This document shows positions 26,064-35,194 of a stretch of 43,813 bases of DNA, in pieces. The position numbers and the translations under genes are program-made. Below the pieces are notes generated by a model. The model saw only the letters and a list, made by a program, of their open reading frames with translations, was not told the DNA's origin and did no database searches. Position 1 is the stretch's first letter; every line of letters starts with the position of its first letter. The stretch is from Actinomycetota bacterium. GTDB lineage: Bacteria > Actinomycetota > Acidimicrobiia > Acidimicrobiales > Ilumatobacteraceae. Where the stretch lies: positions 1-43,813 of the forward strand of contig JAFMFM010000013.1 of assembly GCA_017856115.1 (NCBI GenBank), read 5' to 3'.

Positions 26064-26076
26064 CACCGAAACGACG

Positions 26077-28663: not shown

Positions 28664-29554
28664 CTACTTCTTCAGCGTGAACTGCGAGATGGTGTCCACG
28701 ATGTGACCCCACAACGGTTCGGGAACGTCGTGACCCATGTCGTCAACCATCACCAACGTGGCGCCCGGAATCAACGCCGCGGTTCGCTCACCCGCAACGG
28801 GTGAGAACAACGTGTCGTCCGTGCCGTGGATCACGAGGGTGGGCACGTTCAGCGCCTGAAGGGCTTCGGTGCGACGACCGCTCGCGTAGATGGCGGCCAT
28901 CTGACGCGGTGAGCCTTCGGGATAGAACGACCGGTCGAAGTCGCGTGCTGCGTTGGCTCGAGACTGGGCGTCGTTGCGGTACTTCTTCGACTGGAAGGCC
29001 TGGTATACCAGTGAGTGTTCGATGAATCCGGCCCGGTCCGAGGGTGGGATCGACATCAGTGCCGTCATTGCCTCGGGGGTGGACTGCATGGTTTCGGGCT
29101 CGCCGGGCATCGACATCACCGAAATAAGGGACGCGGCTCGCACTGGATGCTCGATGGCGAACACTTGCGCGATCATGCCGCCCATAGAGGCACCCATGAT
29201 GTGTGCCTTCGTGATGCCGAGGTGATCCATGAGTCCGGCTACGTCGGCAGCCATGTCGCTCAACGTGTAGGGCACGGGCGGCAACGGCTGTTCGAGCAAC
29301 GCCGCAGTTACCACCGCGTCGGAGTCGACCACCACGCCGTCCAATTTGGTGGACAACCCAACGTCACGATTGTCGAATCGCACCACGAAGTGCCCCTTGT
29401 CGGCGAGCAATTTCACGAATCGTTCGTCCCACGCAACCATCTGTGCGCCGAATCCCATGATGAGAATGAGTGCCGGGTTGCTCTTGTCACCGAACGTGTC
29501 GTACTCCAGCTCGATGGACAGGGTTTCGTACTTGTTGACAACGGCCCGTGGCAT
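28664..29554 (-). CDS. Alpha/beta hydrolase (esterase, RdmC/LipG-like)
   Basis: A 296-residue hydrolase. Seen: [30 protein letters not shown]; the nucleophile elbow GASMGGMIA; the acid [10 protein letters not shown]; and the base in [12 protein letters not shown], giving a complete Ser-Asp-His triad. It resembles methyl-esterase and LipG-type lipases of actinobacteria; substrate unknown. ATG 29554 is chosen because TACCGT lies exactly 6 bases before it. It heads the operon with the CaiB-type, PIG-L and phosphatase genes. Confidence 0.87.
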
Positions 29555-29576
29555 GACTTCACGGTAGCGTTTCGCC
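29555..29576. promoter_or_regulatory. Candidate symmetric bidirectional leaderless promoter (hydrolase / galK)
   Basis: The whole 22-base gap between two divergent starts reads as 6 bases, then ACGGTAGCGT (29561-29570), then 6 bases. The plus strand holds TAGCGT 6 bases before GTG 29577. The minus strand holds TACCGT 6 bases before ATG 29554. The two hexamers share the single TA at 29565-29566. This is the arrangement expected of a -10 pair making leaderless mRNAs in both directions. No Shine-Dalgarno site is possible in either gap. Confidence 0.6.
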
Positions 29577-30617
29577 GTGTCGTCAGTCGCACGCGCACCC
29601 GGTCGCGTGAATCTCATCGGTGATCACACCGATTACACGGGTGGCTTGGTGTTGCCGATGGCCATCGACCGCGAGACCACCATCACGTTCACGGCGTCTC
29701 CCCACGTCGAACTCACCAGTCGGGACTTCGACGGCCACGTTCGCTTCGACCTCCCGATAGCGAGTGCCTCCACGTTGCAGCCGTCATGGGGCAGATACGT
29801 CGCCGGGGTCGCAGCGGCCATGAGCGAGCGGAGCATGGCCCCCATTGGTTTCTCCGGCACGGTGGCCACCACGGTGCCCATCGGCGGAGGGCTCTCGTCG
29901 AGTGCCGCATTGGAGGTTGCAGCAGCATTGGCGTTCGGTATCGAAGCAGACCTTGCCACCATCGCTGCGGTGTGTCGTCGCGCCGAGCACCTCGCCACCA
30001 GCGTGCCGTGCGGCATCATGGACCAACTCACTTCCACTGCAGGCGTGAAGGACCACGCCCTGCTGATCGATTGTCATTCACTCGACATCACGCCGATTCG
30101 AATTCCCGACGGCGTTTCGGTGTGGGTGGTACCGGTGTCCGCACGCACGCTCGACGGAAGCGAGTACCCGATGCGCGTGGCACAGTGTGCGGCGGCCGAA
30201 CGCGAGATCGGCCCACTACGTTCGGCGGACCTCGCGGGCACGAACAACATCGTCGACCGCGTCATTCGTGCACGCGCGCGTCACGTCGTGAGTGAAAACC
30301 TCCGTGTTCGGGCTTTCGCTGCGGCACTCGCTGCAAACGACCTCCACGATGTCGGAAAGATCATGTACGAGGGACACCACAGCCTCAGCCGCGACTTCGA
30401 AACCTCCACTCCAGCCATGGATGCAGCAGTGGAACACTTCGCTCGAATTCCCGGAGTGCACGGTGCACGAATGACAGGCGGAGGATTCGGCGGTTGCCTG
30501 GTGATCCTGGCCGACGACGATGCCCCGATCGCCGCTGGCGCCGATTCGGACGGCCATTCCGACGCCATGCGAGTGCGAGCCGCTGACGGGGCATCACTCG
30601 ACACACCGCTGTCGTAG
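29577..30617 (+). CDS. galK: Galactokinase (GHMP kinase)
   Basis: A 346-residue sugar kinase, galactose plus ATP to galactose 1-phosphate. Seen: ARAPGRVNLIGDHTDYTGG at the very start (sugar-binding; the usual GEHTDY has Asp for Glu here); VPIGGGLSSSAALEVA, the ATP-binding GHMP loop; VPCGIMDQ with the catalytic Asp; and ARMTGGGFGGCLV. Other Leloir genes (galT, galE) are absent nearby, so a related sugar substrate cannot be ruled out. The GTG start at 29577 fits the leaderless promoter. Its TAG stop begins the TAGCCT in front of the helicase gene. Confidence 0.9.
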   Translation: MSSVARAPGRVNLIGDHTDYTGGLVLPMAIDRETTITFTASPHVELTSRDFDGHVRFDLPIASASTLQPSWGRYVAGVAAAMSERSMAPIGFSGTVATTVPIGGGLSSSAALEVAAALAFGIEADLATIAAVCRRAEHLATSVPCGIMDQLTSTAGVKDHALLIDCHSLDITPIRIPDGVSVWVVPVSARTLDGSEYPMRVAQCAAAEREIGPLRSADLAGTNNIVDRVIRARARHVVSENLRVRAFAAALAANDLHDVGKIMYEGHHSLSRDFETSTPAMDAAVEHFARIPGVHGARMTGGGFGGCLVILADDDAPIAAGADSDGHSDAMRVRAADGASLDTPLS

Positions 30618-30620
30618 CCT
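30615..30620 (+). promoter_or_regulatory. Candidate -10 for the helicase gene, overlapping the galK stop codon
   Basis: TAGCCT, 7 bases before GTG 30628. Its first three bases are the galK TAG stop. The helicase gene has no Shine-Dalgarno site in the 10-base gap, so a separate leaderless transcript is plausible. Confidence 0.45.
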
Positions 30621-30627
30621 GCCCAGC

Positions 30628-32541
30628 GTGAATGATGACGCGCTATTGGCTGATCTCGACGACGATCAGCGTCGCGCGGTTACCTGCGCCCCCACTGCCA
30701 CCGTCATCCACGCCGGTGCTGGCTCGGGGAAAACCCGCGTCCTCACTCATCGCATCGCGTGGCGCATCGCCCGTGGAACGGCCGATCCATCGAGGGTGTT
30801 GGCCATCACTTTCACGCGCGAAGCAGCAGCAGAGATGCGACGACGCTTGCGGTCGCTGGGCGTAACCCGACACGACCGCGCTGGCGATCTCGATCAACCC
30901 ACCATCGGCACCTTCCACTCGGTGGCCTTGGCGCTCCTGCGACGACGTGCCGCCGACACGTCGGCACAGCTACCCACGGTGGTGGGAAACCGTATTTCGC
31001 TCCTCGATCAGGCGCTCGGCGAAAACTCGCTCGGCCGCCAAAGTTCCGTGGTTCTCGCCGAAATCGACTGGGCCCACGCACGAATGGTGTCGCCCGAACG
31101 TTACGAGGCCGAAGTCGAACGACTGGGCCGAAAGGTGACGCTTGCACCATCGCGTGTTGCAGCTGCGTATCGCGCTTACGAACGCATCAAGACCAAGCGC
31201 GGTGTCGTCGACCTCGACGATCTGGTGAGTCAAGCGACACGCGTCATAAACGAGCGGTCCGACTTTGCCGCCGCCACTCGATTTCGATTTCGCCACATCT
31301 TCGTCGACGAAGCCCAGGACATGAACCCGCTGCAATACGCATTTTTCGAGGCCTTGCGCGGCGATCGCGACGACGTCTTCATCGTCGGGGATCCGTTGCA
31401 GGCGATCTACGGCTGGAACGGCGCCGACCCCGCGCTGTTCACCAGTTTGCCCGATGCGCTCAACATGCCCACCGTGCTTACGCTGCCCGGCAACTACCGC
31501 TGCACACCACAAGTGCTCGACGTGGCCACACACGTCGCCACCAATTCCGGGGTAACTCCGAACGTCCGGTCACGACGGTCGCCGGGTTTCCCGGTGGAGT
31601 ACCTCGAAGTGGAGGACGAATTCGACGAGGAGCATCTGCTGCGCCAGATCGTCGCACCGCACGTTCGACCCGGGCTCGACCCATCGATGGCAGTCTTGGC
31701 ACGAACCCACGCGGTACTCGAACCACTCGCCCGATCGCTGAGCAAGGCGGGAATTCCCGTCGCATCACGGCGAGCAAGCGCCGTGCGCACCAACGCCATC
31801 GACGAAGTTGCCGAGTGCCGCACTCGACACGATCTCACGGTGTGGGCGGCCGACATCATCGTCGAATCCACGGACGACGACGAACGAATCGTGGCCGAGC
31901 AGGTACAGGCGTACCTTCGCAGCAGCACGAAAGGCGAGGTCGATGGTCGAAGTGCAGCCGCATACCTGCGCGCCAGCCATGCCGCTCCTGAAAACTACGG
32001 AGTGGAACTCCTCACGTTCCATGCCGCGAAGGGTCGGGAGTTTTCGCGCGTGATAATCGTCGGGGCCGAGCGCGGCCTCATGCCGCACGCTTCGGCATCG
32101 ACCGACGAGCAACTACGAGAGGAGGCGCGCCTCGCCTACGTGGCGTGTACCCGAGCCGCCGACCATCTCACGGTGATTCGCGCCAAACGACGAAAAGGTC
32201 GTGTCACGGCGACGAGTCCGTACTTCGCCACGCTGCCCGACGGTGTCGAGCATCGGGGTCGGCATACAGCACCAGCCGAGCGCCCACGCCTCTCGCCCCC
32301 CACCGATCCCCGGGTTCTCGCCGATCGCGACCTGAAGCGGCGTCTCTGCGATGTTCGCGATGCGATTGCACGAACCAACTTCACCCTGCCCGAAGCCGTG
32401 TTGAGCGACGTTGAAATTTCCCGGATCGTGACCGAGCGTCCGCACGACGTGGAACAACTCTCGCGCATTCTCGGACCGCTGACGGCGAATCGCCTCGGGA
32501 CTGCGATACTTCGCGAAGTCGGACTGCCCATCAACCCATGA
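30628..32541 (+). CDS. UvrD-family DNA helicase with C-terminal HRDC-like domain (UvrD2-like)
   Basis: A 637-residue superfamily-1 3'-5' helicase. Seen: Q motif LDDDQRRAV; Walker A AGAGSGKT at 29-36; TFTREAAAEM; GTFHSVALALLRR; Walker B VDEAQD at 226-231; GDPLQAIYGWNGAD at 254-267; GNYR; LLTFHAAKGREF; and AYVACTRA. The last 70 residues (DRDLKRRLCDVRDAI on, to LGPLTANRLG) look like an HRDC domain as in mycobacterial UvrD2. Length is normal for that type. The GTG at 30628 is chosen for the TAGCCT 7 bases upstream. The stop overlaps the next gene as ATGA. Confidence 0.92.
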   Translation: MNDDALLADLDDDQRRAVTCAPTATVIHAGAGSGKTRVLTHRIAWRIARGTADPSRVLAITFTREAAAEMRRRLRSLGVTRHDRAGDLDQPTIGTFHSVALALLRRRAADTSAQLPTVVGNRISLLDQALGENSLGRQSSVVLAEIDWAHARMVSPERYEAEVERLGRKVTLAPSRVAAAYRAYERIKTKRGVVDLDDLVSQATRVINERSDFAAATRFRFRHIFVDEAQDMNPLQYAFFEALRGDRDDVFIVGDPLQAIYGWNGADPALFTSLPDALNMPTVLTLPGNYRCTPQVLDVATHVATNSGVTPNVRSRRSPGFPVEYLEVEDEFDEEHLLRQIVAPHVRPGLDPSMAVLARTHAVLEPLARSLSKAGIPVASRRASAVRTNAIDEVAECRTRHDLTVWAADIIVESTDDDERIVAEQVQAYLRSSTKGEVDGRSAAAYLRASHAAPENYGVELLTFHAAKGREFSRVIIVGAERGLMPHASASTDEQLREEARLAYVACTRAADHLTVIRAKRRKGRVTATSPYFATLPDGVEHRGRHTAPAERPRLSPPTDPRVLADRDLKRRLCDVRDAIARTNFTLPEAVLSDVEISRIVTERPHDVEQLSRILGPLTANRLGTAILREVGLPINP

Positions 32542-33188: not shown

Positions 33189-34196
33189 CTAGGCGTAGCG
33201 AGCTCGAACCAGTGCGGCGGTTCGCGCCGCCAAATCCGAGTACTTGGCGGGCTCGAGCACCTGCACATTGCGACCGCCACGCAACAAGAGCCTCGATAGC
33301 CAGTGTTCGCTGCTTACTCGCAGCGCAACGTCGATGGAACCGTCGCGGTTCTTCCGCCGCGACACGGTTGGATACGCCTCAGCGATCCACGTTGCGTCGC
33401 CGCGAACGCGCAACGTCACCAGTTCGAGGTCGCTACCGAACCAGCCACCATCGGCGTCGTCCTCGATGCGGCTGGCGACGTCGGCTTGGTTGTACAACTT
33501 GCCCGTTCGCACCACCGATTGGATGCGGTCCACACGGAAGTTCCGGATCGCACCGGACTTGTCGTCGTCGGCCAACACGTACCAATGTCCGCTCTCACTG
33601 AAGATCCGCACCACGCGAATGGTGCGTTGCGCGACCTCCGATCGAGCAGGGTTGAAATACTCGATTCGCAATTCAGCCGAGTCGGCCTGCGCGGACCGCA
33701 GATCCTCCAGGTTGGGCTCGTCGGGAAGGTCGATGTGCACCGGCCCATCGGTTGCCTCGGGCGCCAGTTTGGCCAGTTTCGACACCGCTCGCGCCAGGAC
33801 CGAGCGCTCCGGAGCGCCGGGCAGTTTCTGCGCGGCACGCACCATGGCGATGACCGCGTACATCTCTGCGCTCGTCAGCCGCAGGGGACGTGTGAAGAAA
33901 TTCGGAACCTCGGCCACCACCCAGCCGTCGTCGATGAATACGTCGATGAGGGTGTCGGGCGTGTATGGCGGTACGCCGCACACCGCGGCCATCTGGATGT
34001 CGGCCACCAGGTCTTCCTCGCTCATGCGGAATTGTTTGGCAACGTCGGCAAGACGAACCCGCTTGCGTTTCATGAGCCAGGGCAACAACACCAGCAATCC
34101 GGCCACGCGCTCTGATGCACTGCGCGGACCGCGACGTTTTGGTGTCGCACGCCTCGCGGGCGAACGACGCTTCGGTGTCGGGCGCTTCTTTGCCAT
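33189..34196 (-). CDS. pafC: WYL-domain transcriptional regulator PafC-like
   Basis: A 335-residue regulator. PafB and PafC form the PafBC activator of the RecA-independent DNA-damage response in mycobacteria. Seen: a basic, low-complexity N-terminus (about 1-28); a winged helix around 30-75 (VRLADVAKQFRMSEEDLVADIQ, then VCGVPPYTPDTLID); RLTSAEMYAVIAMVRA; and a WYL core with VVRIFSESGHWYVLADD and FRVDRIQSV. The ATG shares one base with the pafB stop (TAATG). No pafA or tatA follows, unlike the mycobacterial locus. Confidence 0.88.
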   Translation of the reverse strand: MAKKRPTPKRRSPARRATPKRRGPRSASERVAGLLVLLPWLMKRKRVRLADVAKQFRMSEEDLVADIQMAAVCGVPPYTPDTLIDVFIDDGWVVAEVPNFFTRPLRLTSAEMYAVIAMVRAAQKLPGAPERSVLARAVSKLAKLAPEATDGPVHIDLPDEPNLEDLRSAQADSAELRIEYFNPARSEVAQRTIRVVRIFSESGHWYVLADDDKSGAIRNFRVDRIQSVVRTGKLYNQADVASRIEDDADGGWFGSDLELVTLRVRGDATWIAEAYPTVSRRKNRDGSIDVALRVSSEHWLSRLLLRGGRNVQVLEPAKYSDLAARTAALVRARYA

Positions 34197-35194
34197 TACG
34201 CCTGCTCCGTGAGTTCGTCGAGCCATCGCACCACCATGTCGCGCACCTCGGGTGGTGACACCACCTCCGCCTTGTCCACCATGGCAAACAGCCACAGTCG
34301 GAATCCGTAGCCATTGCTGCACGGAATCTCGAACACCGCCGACCCGTCGGCTTCGTCGCGTACTTTGGCGGTGTCACCGAATTCGCGGGCAACGGTGCGA
34401 ACCAACGACGGGTCGATACGCACCTGTGCCGATGCGTGTTCGTAGTCGCCGGCGGCCATCATCTGGCGATCCGTCGGAACGGCGCTCGCGATGTTGAGAT
34501 TCTTGGGGATGGTGTACGACCCCGACTTTCCCTTCTTCACCGCGCTTTCGATGCGATCAACTCGAAATACGCGTTGGGCCTTGCGGAGATGATCGAAGCC
34601 GACGATGTACCAAAACCCGCGACGTGCCAACATGCCGTAGGTGTCCACGGTTCGGTGCTCGCCCTTGTACATGAACGTGAGTGGCGAGCGAACGCTGATG
34701 GCATCGAGGATCGTGTCGAGGTGCGGGTCGGTGAATCCGATCGATGCACGGGGGCCAATCTTGGGATTCACACGCTCGGCTCCCAGTTTCCAGAGGGCTT
34801 GCTCGCCCTCCTGGGCACCCAGGTGCACGATGGATGCTGCGAGCTGCAACGCCTGGAGTTCCTCCGCCGTGAACCCCATGTCGCTCAATTCGTAGCTGTT
34901 TCGATTCACGCTGTAGGCGGTTTCGCCGGCCTGTGCTCCTCCCAGGACCGTGCCTTCGATCGGGATACCCAGCGCTCGAAGATCGGATTTGTCCCGTTCG
35001 AACTGTGCCCGGGCAGCGTTGTTGTCGTCGCTGTACTGGTTGTGCAACTCGGCGCGAATCTGTTTGAGCGTGATCGGTTGGGTTCGCGCCGACAGCAACG
35101 CCAGCAAATTGAGCATCCGCTCGGCGGCGTTCACCCGTGGCTGCGTCTTCTGCGTCGCAGGTCGCGACGGTGTCTTCGGGGACTTTTTTGCCAC
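34196..35194 (-). CDS. pafB: WYL-domain transcriptional regulator PafB-like
   Basis: A 332-residue partner of PafC. Seen: winged helix about 15-75 (NAAERMLNLLALLSARTQPI on, then FERDKSDLRALGIPIE, the PafB-type helix and turn); AYSVNRNSYELSDMGFTAEEL; and the WYL core with FWYIVGFDHLRKAQRVFRVDRI. GTG 35194 fits the usual N-terminus. It lies 17 bases after pgi on the same strand, with TACACT about 10 bases upstream as a weak promoter candidate, so it could share the pgi transcript. Confidence 0.88.
   Translation of the reverse strand: MAKKSPKTPSRPATQKTQPRVNAAERMLNLLALLSARTQPITLKQIRAELHNQYSDDNNAARAQFERDKSDLRALGIPIEGTVLGGAQAGETAYSVNRNSYELSDMGFTAEELQALQLAASIVHLGAQEGEQALWKLGAERVNPKIGPRASIGFTDPHLDTILDAISVRSPLTFMYKGEHRTVDTYGMLARRGFWYIVGFDHLRKAQRVFRVDRIESAVKKGKSGSYTIPKNLNIASAVPTDRQMMAAGDYEHASAQVRIDPSLVRTVAREFGDTAKVRDEADGSAVFEIPCSNGYGFRLWLFAMVDKAEVVSPPEVRDMVVRWLDELTEQA

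Follow-up and report, generated by a model that had tools for sequence, protein, structure and literature searches.

A 22-base gap between divergent galK and hydrolase genes as a probable bidirectional promoter for two leaderless genes

The analyzed window is a stretch of 43,813 nucleotides, contig C29 of genome G000 (1.67 Mb, 77 contigs), in which a galactokinase gene, galK, and an alpha/beta-hydrolase gene are transcribed divergently from a short intergenic gap. The features considered below are listed here, with d standing for the number of bases between a TANNNT hexamer and the start codon.

28664–29554, minus strand: alpha/beta-hydrolase, 296 aa (PF00561, E 9.7e-29)
29577–30617, plus strand: galactokinase galK, 346 aa (PF10509, PF00288, PF08544)
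29555–29576, no strand: whole intergenic gap, read from the sequence as one bidirectional promoter; the 11 genus loci agree in 19 of 22 columns
29558–29574, no strand: 17-bp block TTCACGGTAGCGTTTCG, unchanged across the 11 genus loci with a complete gap
29565–29570, plus strand: predicted galK -10 element TAGCGT, a TANNNT hexamer 6 bases before GTG, in agreement with the genome spacing profile
29561–29566, minus strand: predicted hydrolase -10 element TACCGT, a TANNNT hexamer 6 bases before ATG; d = 6 also in 10 of 30 loci outside the genus
29565–29566, no strand: TA base pairs common to both -10 elements, -12/-11 of one being -11/-12 of the other
29577, plus strand: predicted galK transcript start, first base of GTG, 6 bases past the -10 element
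29554, minus strand: predicted hydrolase transcript start, first base of ATG, placed by the geometry

The 22 bases of the gap read GACTTC ACGGTAGCGT TTCGCC, i.e. 6 + 10 + 6, and the core ACGGTAGCGT is an imperfect palindrome. The order on the plus strand is TAGCGT (29565–29570), TTCGCC and the GTG at 29577; on the minus strand it is TACCGT (29566–29561), GAAGTC and the ATG at 29554. The first T of TANNNT is located 12 bases before the start codon of both genes, and the two hexamers, being on opposite strands, overlap in the TA at 29565–29566. If both transcripts begin at the codons, the predicted starts are 23 bp apart. Inspection reveals no Shine-Dalgarno sequence before either start (TTCGCC-GTG and GAAGTC-ATG), as in leaderless genes, and no consensus -35 element conserved among the genus loci in either direction. 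A TTGACA at 29535–29540 was considered as the galK -35 element and rejected, as it lies 24 bp before the -10 element and is seen in only two of the 11 complete genus loci.

This geometry had been described in an earlier note on the same DNA, and the sequence confirms it. The note had also regarded the fit on both strands as hard to explain by chance. The window has a single match to CAY-N6-ANNNTANNNT-N6-RTG and shuffled sequences average 0.04; at least one match was present in four of 100 shuffles, and the fit taken by itself is thus only moderately improbable. Stronger evidence for the arrangement is provided by the conservation and recurrence described below.

Both start codons appear to be assigned correctly. 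The hydrolase is the first gene of a minus-strand run, followed by genes for CoA-transferase III, PIG-L and histidine phosphatase; its best three named matches, in a search that may have omitted entries from this genome and those very close to it, are 66–71% identical and come from metagenome bins labelled Acidimicrobiaceae, Acidimicrobium and Actinobacteria. The N-terminus MPR(A/T) at 29554 is kept in 10 of 11 genus hydrolases (the exception, L011, has MPSA), and MPRA is also found in several hydrolase loci of other genera, so the ATG at 29554 is the likely start. An alternative reading frame begins 63 nt further upstream, within galK, and is an unlikely start given the conserved N-terminus. 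For galK, the GTG at 29577 is the most upstream start possible, with no in-frame start codon before it, and GTG is the galK start codon in all 12 genus loci.

The gap is far better conserved than the genes around it. A galK gene is found in 12 of 13 genus genomes (not in G008), and 57 of 61 genomes searched have a match. One locus (L006) begins inside the gap and was excluded from the gap count; all 11 remaining complete genus loci have a divergent hydrolase gene and a gap of exactly 22 bases. Its invariant columns (19 of 22) include an unbroken run of 17, while in either flanking gene, over its full length in these 11 loci, no such run exceeds 8 (galK on the codon alignment). The mean pairwise identity is 0.960 in the gap vs. 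0.784 in the hydrolase gene, and invariant four-fold sites number five of 96 in the hydrolase gene and six of 107 in galK (12 loci, start codon counted). Therefore, the gap is under strong selection. The alignment of related genomes, proposed in the earlier note as a check, thus supports the arrangement.

By this comparison, the selection is stronger than two TANNNT elements alone would require: the invariant block also fixes the N positions and spacer bases. The extra bases may contribute to promoter strength (e.g. TT at -19/-18 of galK) or be contacted by a bound protein. Conservation may extend into galK as well: in codons 4–6, GTC GCA CGC (29586–29594), the third bases are kept in 11, 11 and 12 of 12 genus loci, and this segment might be a weak -35 or upstream promoter element of the hydrolase gene.

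The spacing of the two hexamers agrees with a signal seen in a large part of the genome. Scoring of hexamers by a simple scheme over 559,259 bases (40 stretches plus the window, about one third of the genome) predicted 501 genes, and TANNNT was counted d bases before candidate ATG or GTG codons within 60 nt of the predicted start. At d = 0 to 5 the numbers of genes were 0, 2, 0, 0, 2 and 3; they rose to 43 at d = 6 and 41 at d = 7, then fell to 24 at d = 8 and 20 at d = 9, with one to nine genes at each d from 13 to 30. Despite the G+C content of 62%, TA...T is the commonest three-letter word in this geometry at d = 6 (43 genes; the next word has 35, and the median is 16). TANNNT at this spacing was interpreted as leaderless by Zheng et al. 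(PMC3160421), and in Mycobacterium tuberculosis this motif and numerous leaderless genes have been reported from transcript maps (PMC3898074). The rise at d = 6 is the mark expected of leaderless promoters.

No clear -35 signal is seen in the 84 cases at d = 6 or 7. The fraction of G or C is 0.86 at -13 and 0.83 at the base after TA, and C occupies -1 in 0.57 of the cases. Both -10 elements of the gap fit this composition, as does the C at -1 of galK. The preference for G or C is symmetrical on both sides of TA, and therefore the sharing of TA by two elements is permitted. The CGN pre-motif reported for M. tuberculosis (PMC3898074) was not accepted as evidence: it fits both -10 elements of the gap, yet only 10 of the 84 leaderless-type promoters have it here.

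Among the 68 divergent pairs of the 559-kb sample, 15 have TANNNT at d = 6–8 on both sides by some choice of starts. The 6/6 spacing is found in six of these 15, with gaps of 75, 27, 37, 49, 22 and 22 bases. One divergent pair (L174:7758–7777) has candidate -10 elements overlapping as TACCCTA, with spacings 6 and 8, and belongs to the class with starts 18 bp apart. A different overlap occurs at the other end of galK (window 30615–30628), where the stop codon TAG is the TAG of TAGCCT, a -10-like hexamer 7 bases before the GTG of a UvrD-type helicase gene. A -10 hexamer beginning on the TAG stop of the upstream same-strand gene is seen in six of the 84 leaderless-type cases, the second one in the window being near 26070 on the minus strand.

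The 6 + 10 + 6 architecture recurs at other places. The pattern CAY-N6-ANNNTANNNT-N6-RTG was searched in the 13 genus genomes, with the same pattern read backwards as a control. The earlier note had proposed such a genome-wide count, and the excess is present: 53 sites vs. 12 in the control (six vs. none in G000; four vs. four in G007). No comparable excess was observed in the same genomes for the 5/5 spacing (six vs. 24), the 6/7 spacing (48 vs. 36) or the leaderless 18-bp class (five vs. 13). Sorted by sequence, the 53 sites comprise 11 between galK and the hydrolase gene, eight between genes of the metallo-beta-lactamase fold and DinB_2 (six of them assigned by the site sequence alone), nine between a luciferase-like (LLM) gene and an ABC transporter gene or purH, two between TatA-type and GDPD genes, six beside a DsbA-like gene (named from its sequence without a domain scan) with an uncertain partner, 12 copies of one conserved site, and five singles. 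The four gene-pair families account for 30 sites, and 23 of the 53 are outside them. Much of the 6/6 excess is orthology.

The conserved site with 12 copies, CACTGGGGAAAGATACACTTTCAAAGTG or a close variant of it, occurs in 12 of 13 genus genomes (in G000 at C14:62001–62028, L061), and in G000 neither strand has a long reading frame beginning at its copy.

Flanking frames were assessed for 17 pattern sites, of which one is that of the window, two are in the stretches and 14 are in 16 extracted loci (the remaining two loci match the 17-mer only with one mismatch). At nine of these sites, frames of at least 69 residues have positive coding scores in both directions; at the other eight, a convincing gene is absent on one or both sides. 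Three of the six sites in G000 are two-gene sites (C29, C38 and C66), two are one-sided (C1 and C2), and one (C14) has a gene on neither side. The pair at C66 is an ABC transporter and a luciferase-like gene; the one at C38 is a metallo-beta-lactamase-fold gene and DinB_2, where both frames could be longer (120 and 30 nt) and DinB_2 scores exactly at the cut-off. In relatives, two-gene sites include the luciferase-like/PurH and TatA-type/GDPD pairs. The shared promoter arrangement is conserved in the genus and recurs at about four gene pairs, whose sites have the same geometry and differ in sequence.

Elsewhere in the phylum, 79 further genomes gave 143 sites vs. 108 in the control (36 genomes above it, 18 below and 25 equal), an excess too weak to be emphasized. 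Within the 559-kb sample, the TA core is found four times in the 6/6 frame and alternative palindromic cores 0 to 15 times; therefore, raw counts do not single out the TA core there.

Together, the observed geometry, its conservation, the spacing profile obtained from a third of the genome and the recurrence at other pairs make it likely that the 22-bp gap acts as a single bidirectional promoter, with a common TA, from which two leaderless genes are transcribed. The earlier claim of two leaderless promoters sharing the TA is thus well supported. In the proposed mechanism, the housekeeping sigma factor would read TAGCGT toward galK or TACCGT toward the hydrolase gene, presumably using both elements, with no need for a consensus -35 element. 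Transcription would begin on each start codon or 1–2 bases from it, so that neither mRNA would have a leader or a Shine-Dalgarno site, with the starts 23 bp apart. One bound polymerase would block the other direction; at low ordinary activity the directions would be largely independent, with interference expected only upon strong activation of one of them.

The fixed N positions and spacer bases, which the -10 elements do not need, and the imperfect palindrome ACGGTAGCGT would also suit an operator, the 17 bp then being mainly the site of a DNA-binding regulator between divergent genes and the TANNNT matches partly incidental. We consider this improbable. The block gives no sign of a multi-copy regulon: perfect copies were found in eight of 121 family genomes drawn, all eight from this genus (10 genus genomes drawn), with a single perfect copy in each and an additional one-mismatch copy in one genome. 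Neither repeated copies in these eight genomes nor an adjacent regulator gene among the 12 window proteins scanned was found, the only regulator-like proteins being two with WYL domains at least 3.6 kb away. At other gene pairs the spacing is retained although the sequence differs. The two WYL-domain proteins are encoded by adjacent genes (window 33189–35134), the first one having a PafC-type helix-turn-helix.

The one-sided sites, two of the six in G000, bring up another possibility, that only one promoter is real and the other -10 element is a by-product of symmetry and conservation. It seems improbable at this locus, since protein conservation supports both start codons, both are exactly at the leaderless spacing, and a gap of 22 bp leaves no room for another promoter except within the opposite gene.

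The partners of the recurrent sites are not constant, and the bidirectional promoter may have been retained when they changed. The LLM gene (PF00296) has a close match (88–100%) in 11 of 13 genus genomes. In five of them (G000, G004, G005, G007 and G009) an ABC transporter gene is divergent from it at 22 bp, with purH beyond, and in four (G002, G003, G006 and G008) purH itself is at 22 bp; the loci compared are G000:C66 (L063), L076 and L187–L197. The four purH genomes, which are 78–94% complete, have only distant relatives of the ABC gene (41% or less, at E 1e-40). In G012 the ABC gene is present with a 23-base 6/7 gap, and in G010 the contig ends within the LLM gap. The core AACCTAG(C/T)CTG is kept in the nine loci with a 22-bp gap, in contrast to the variable bases beside the start codon of purH or of the ABC gene. 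The simpler reading of the difference would be that the ABC gene was lost. In G006 (C16:14750–14947; L071, L186) the purH match is limited to the first 66 residues, and the frame ends after 69, due to a frameshift, a rearrangement or an assembly fault.

Outside the genus, the hydrolase gene is found near galK in seven of 18 galK loci, leaving some room for a functional link, and in four of these seven its immediate divergent partner is another gene. It is directly divergent from galK in three of the 18 loci; in six, an LLM-type oxidoreductase gene directly precedes galK, and the hydrolase gene is divergent from that gene in four of the six. The neighbourhood is thus partly kept, and the immediate partner is not fixed. 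The hydrolase loci outside the genus number 30, namely 23 of the 24 examined by script out of 80 (L092, without a start, was excluded) and the seven galK-linked ones. TANNNT is located at d = 6 before the hydrolase start in 10 of them, and in two (L019 and L081) it has the shared form AGACTACCGT (in galK orientation), with d = 6 for the hydrolase gene and d = 8 or 7 for the other start, the other gene being LLM-type by eye. In the genus, galK may have taken over the place of this partner, though the cores are not the same.

As a broader, tentative suggestion, to which we give clearly less credence than to the bidirectional promoter itself, the doubly leaderless overlapping -10 site could be a selected 22-bp two-gene module that outlives its genes. 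The place of a lost gene would be filled by the gene behind it at the same six-base spacing (PurH after the ABC transporter; perhaps galK after the oxidoreductase), and, since neither mRNA has a leader, the direction of polymerase binding would be the main control step left.

The earlier note went further, proposing that the choice of direction by the polymerase makes galK and the hydrolase gene mutually exclusive and couples galactose use to lipid/ester metabolism. This would be an addition to the shared promoter, not an alternative for it. Steric exclusion at a single -10 site is plausible and even expected, as opposing polymerases are reported to be unable to bind a shared -10 element at once, and in E. 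coli activation of one direction can repress the other (PMC12825309); the proximity of the hydrolase gene to galK outside the genus is also in line with coupling. Still, in the five E. coli bidirectional promoters described as tested, basal transcription was too low for competition, and interference appeared once one direction was activated (PMC12825309). For this reason we accept the shared promoter and for now reject the metabolic switch, which has little probability, is unsupported, and is further opposed by the four of seven outside loci with another immediate divergent partner.

The proposed gap promoter is an unusually compact form of a known type of two-way promoter. If confirmed, it would illustrate to what size a working divergent control region can shrink, serving two mRNAs without leaders from one common TA. 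It would also offer a well-defined and conserved locus at which to test whether selection for promoter overlap acts through coupling or simply through economy of space in small genomes. Replacement of partners at constant spacing is a natural experiment on the same question. The general kind is known, and the distinctive feature would be the combination of the E. coli-type 23-bp bidirectional geometry with actinobacterial leaderless starts; no two-sided leaderless shared -10 element was named in the literature searched (titles and abstract openings, with most subscription journals outside the scope).

The closest known systems are of three kinds. The shared -10 bidirectional promoters described by Grainger and co-workers (PMC12825309, PMC10268837) likewise combine divergent transcription with one overlapping -10 site, as predicted here. 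Their common start distances in E. coli are reported as 18, 10 and 23 bp (PMC12825309), and 23 bp, if the starts are at the codons, is among these three. The 18-bp class, whose geometry is given in PMC10268837, is the commonest in E. coli (PMC12825309, PMC10268837), while its leaderless counterpart shows no excess here. Unlike in E. coli, both mRNAs are predicted to be leaderless, and the promoter is the whole intergenic region. With the leaderless TANNNT promoters reported for Actinobacteria and mycobacteria (PMC3160421, PMC3898074), the gap shares the first T 12 bases before the start and the lack of a Shine-Dalgarno site and of a consensus -35 element; the difference is that here two such promoters overlap head to head in a common TA. 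Finally, closely juxtaposed divergent promoters have been called common in M. tuberculosis (PMC3898074), and the pair Rv1129c/prpD of that species resembles galK and the hydrolase gene in being adjacent and divergent, with both mRNAs leaderless, as reported there (PMC3898074) and predicted here.
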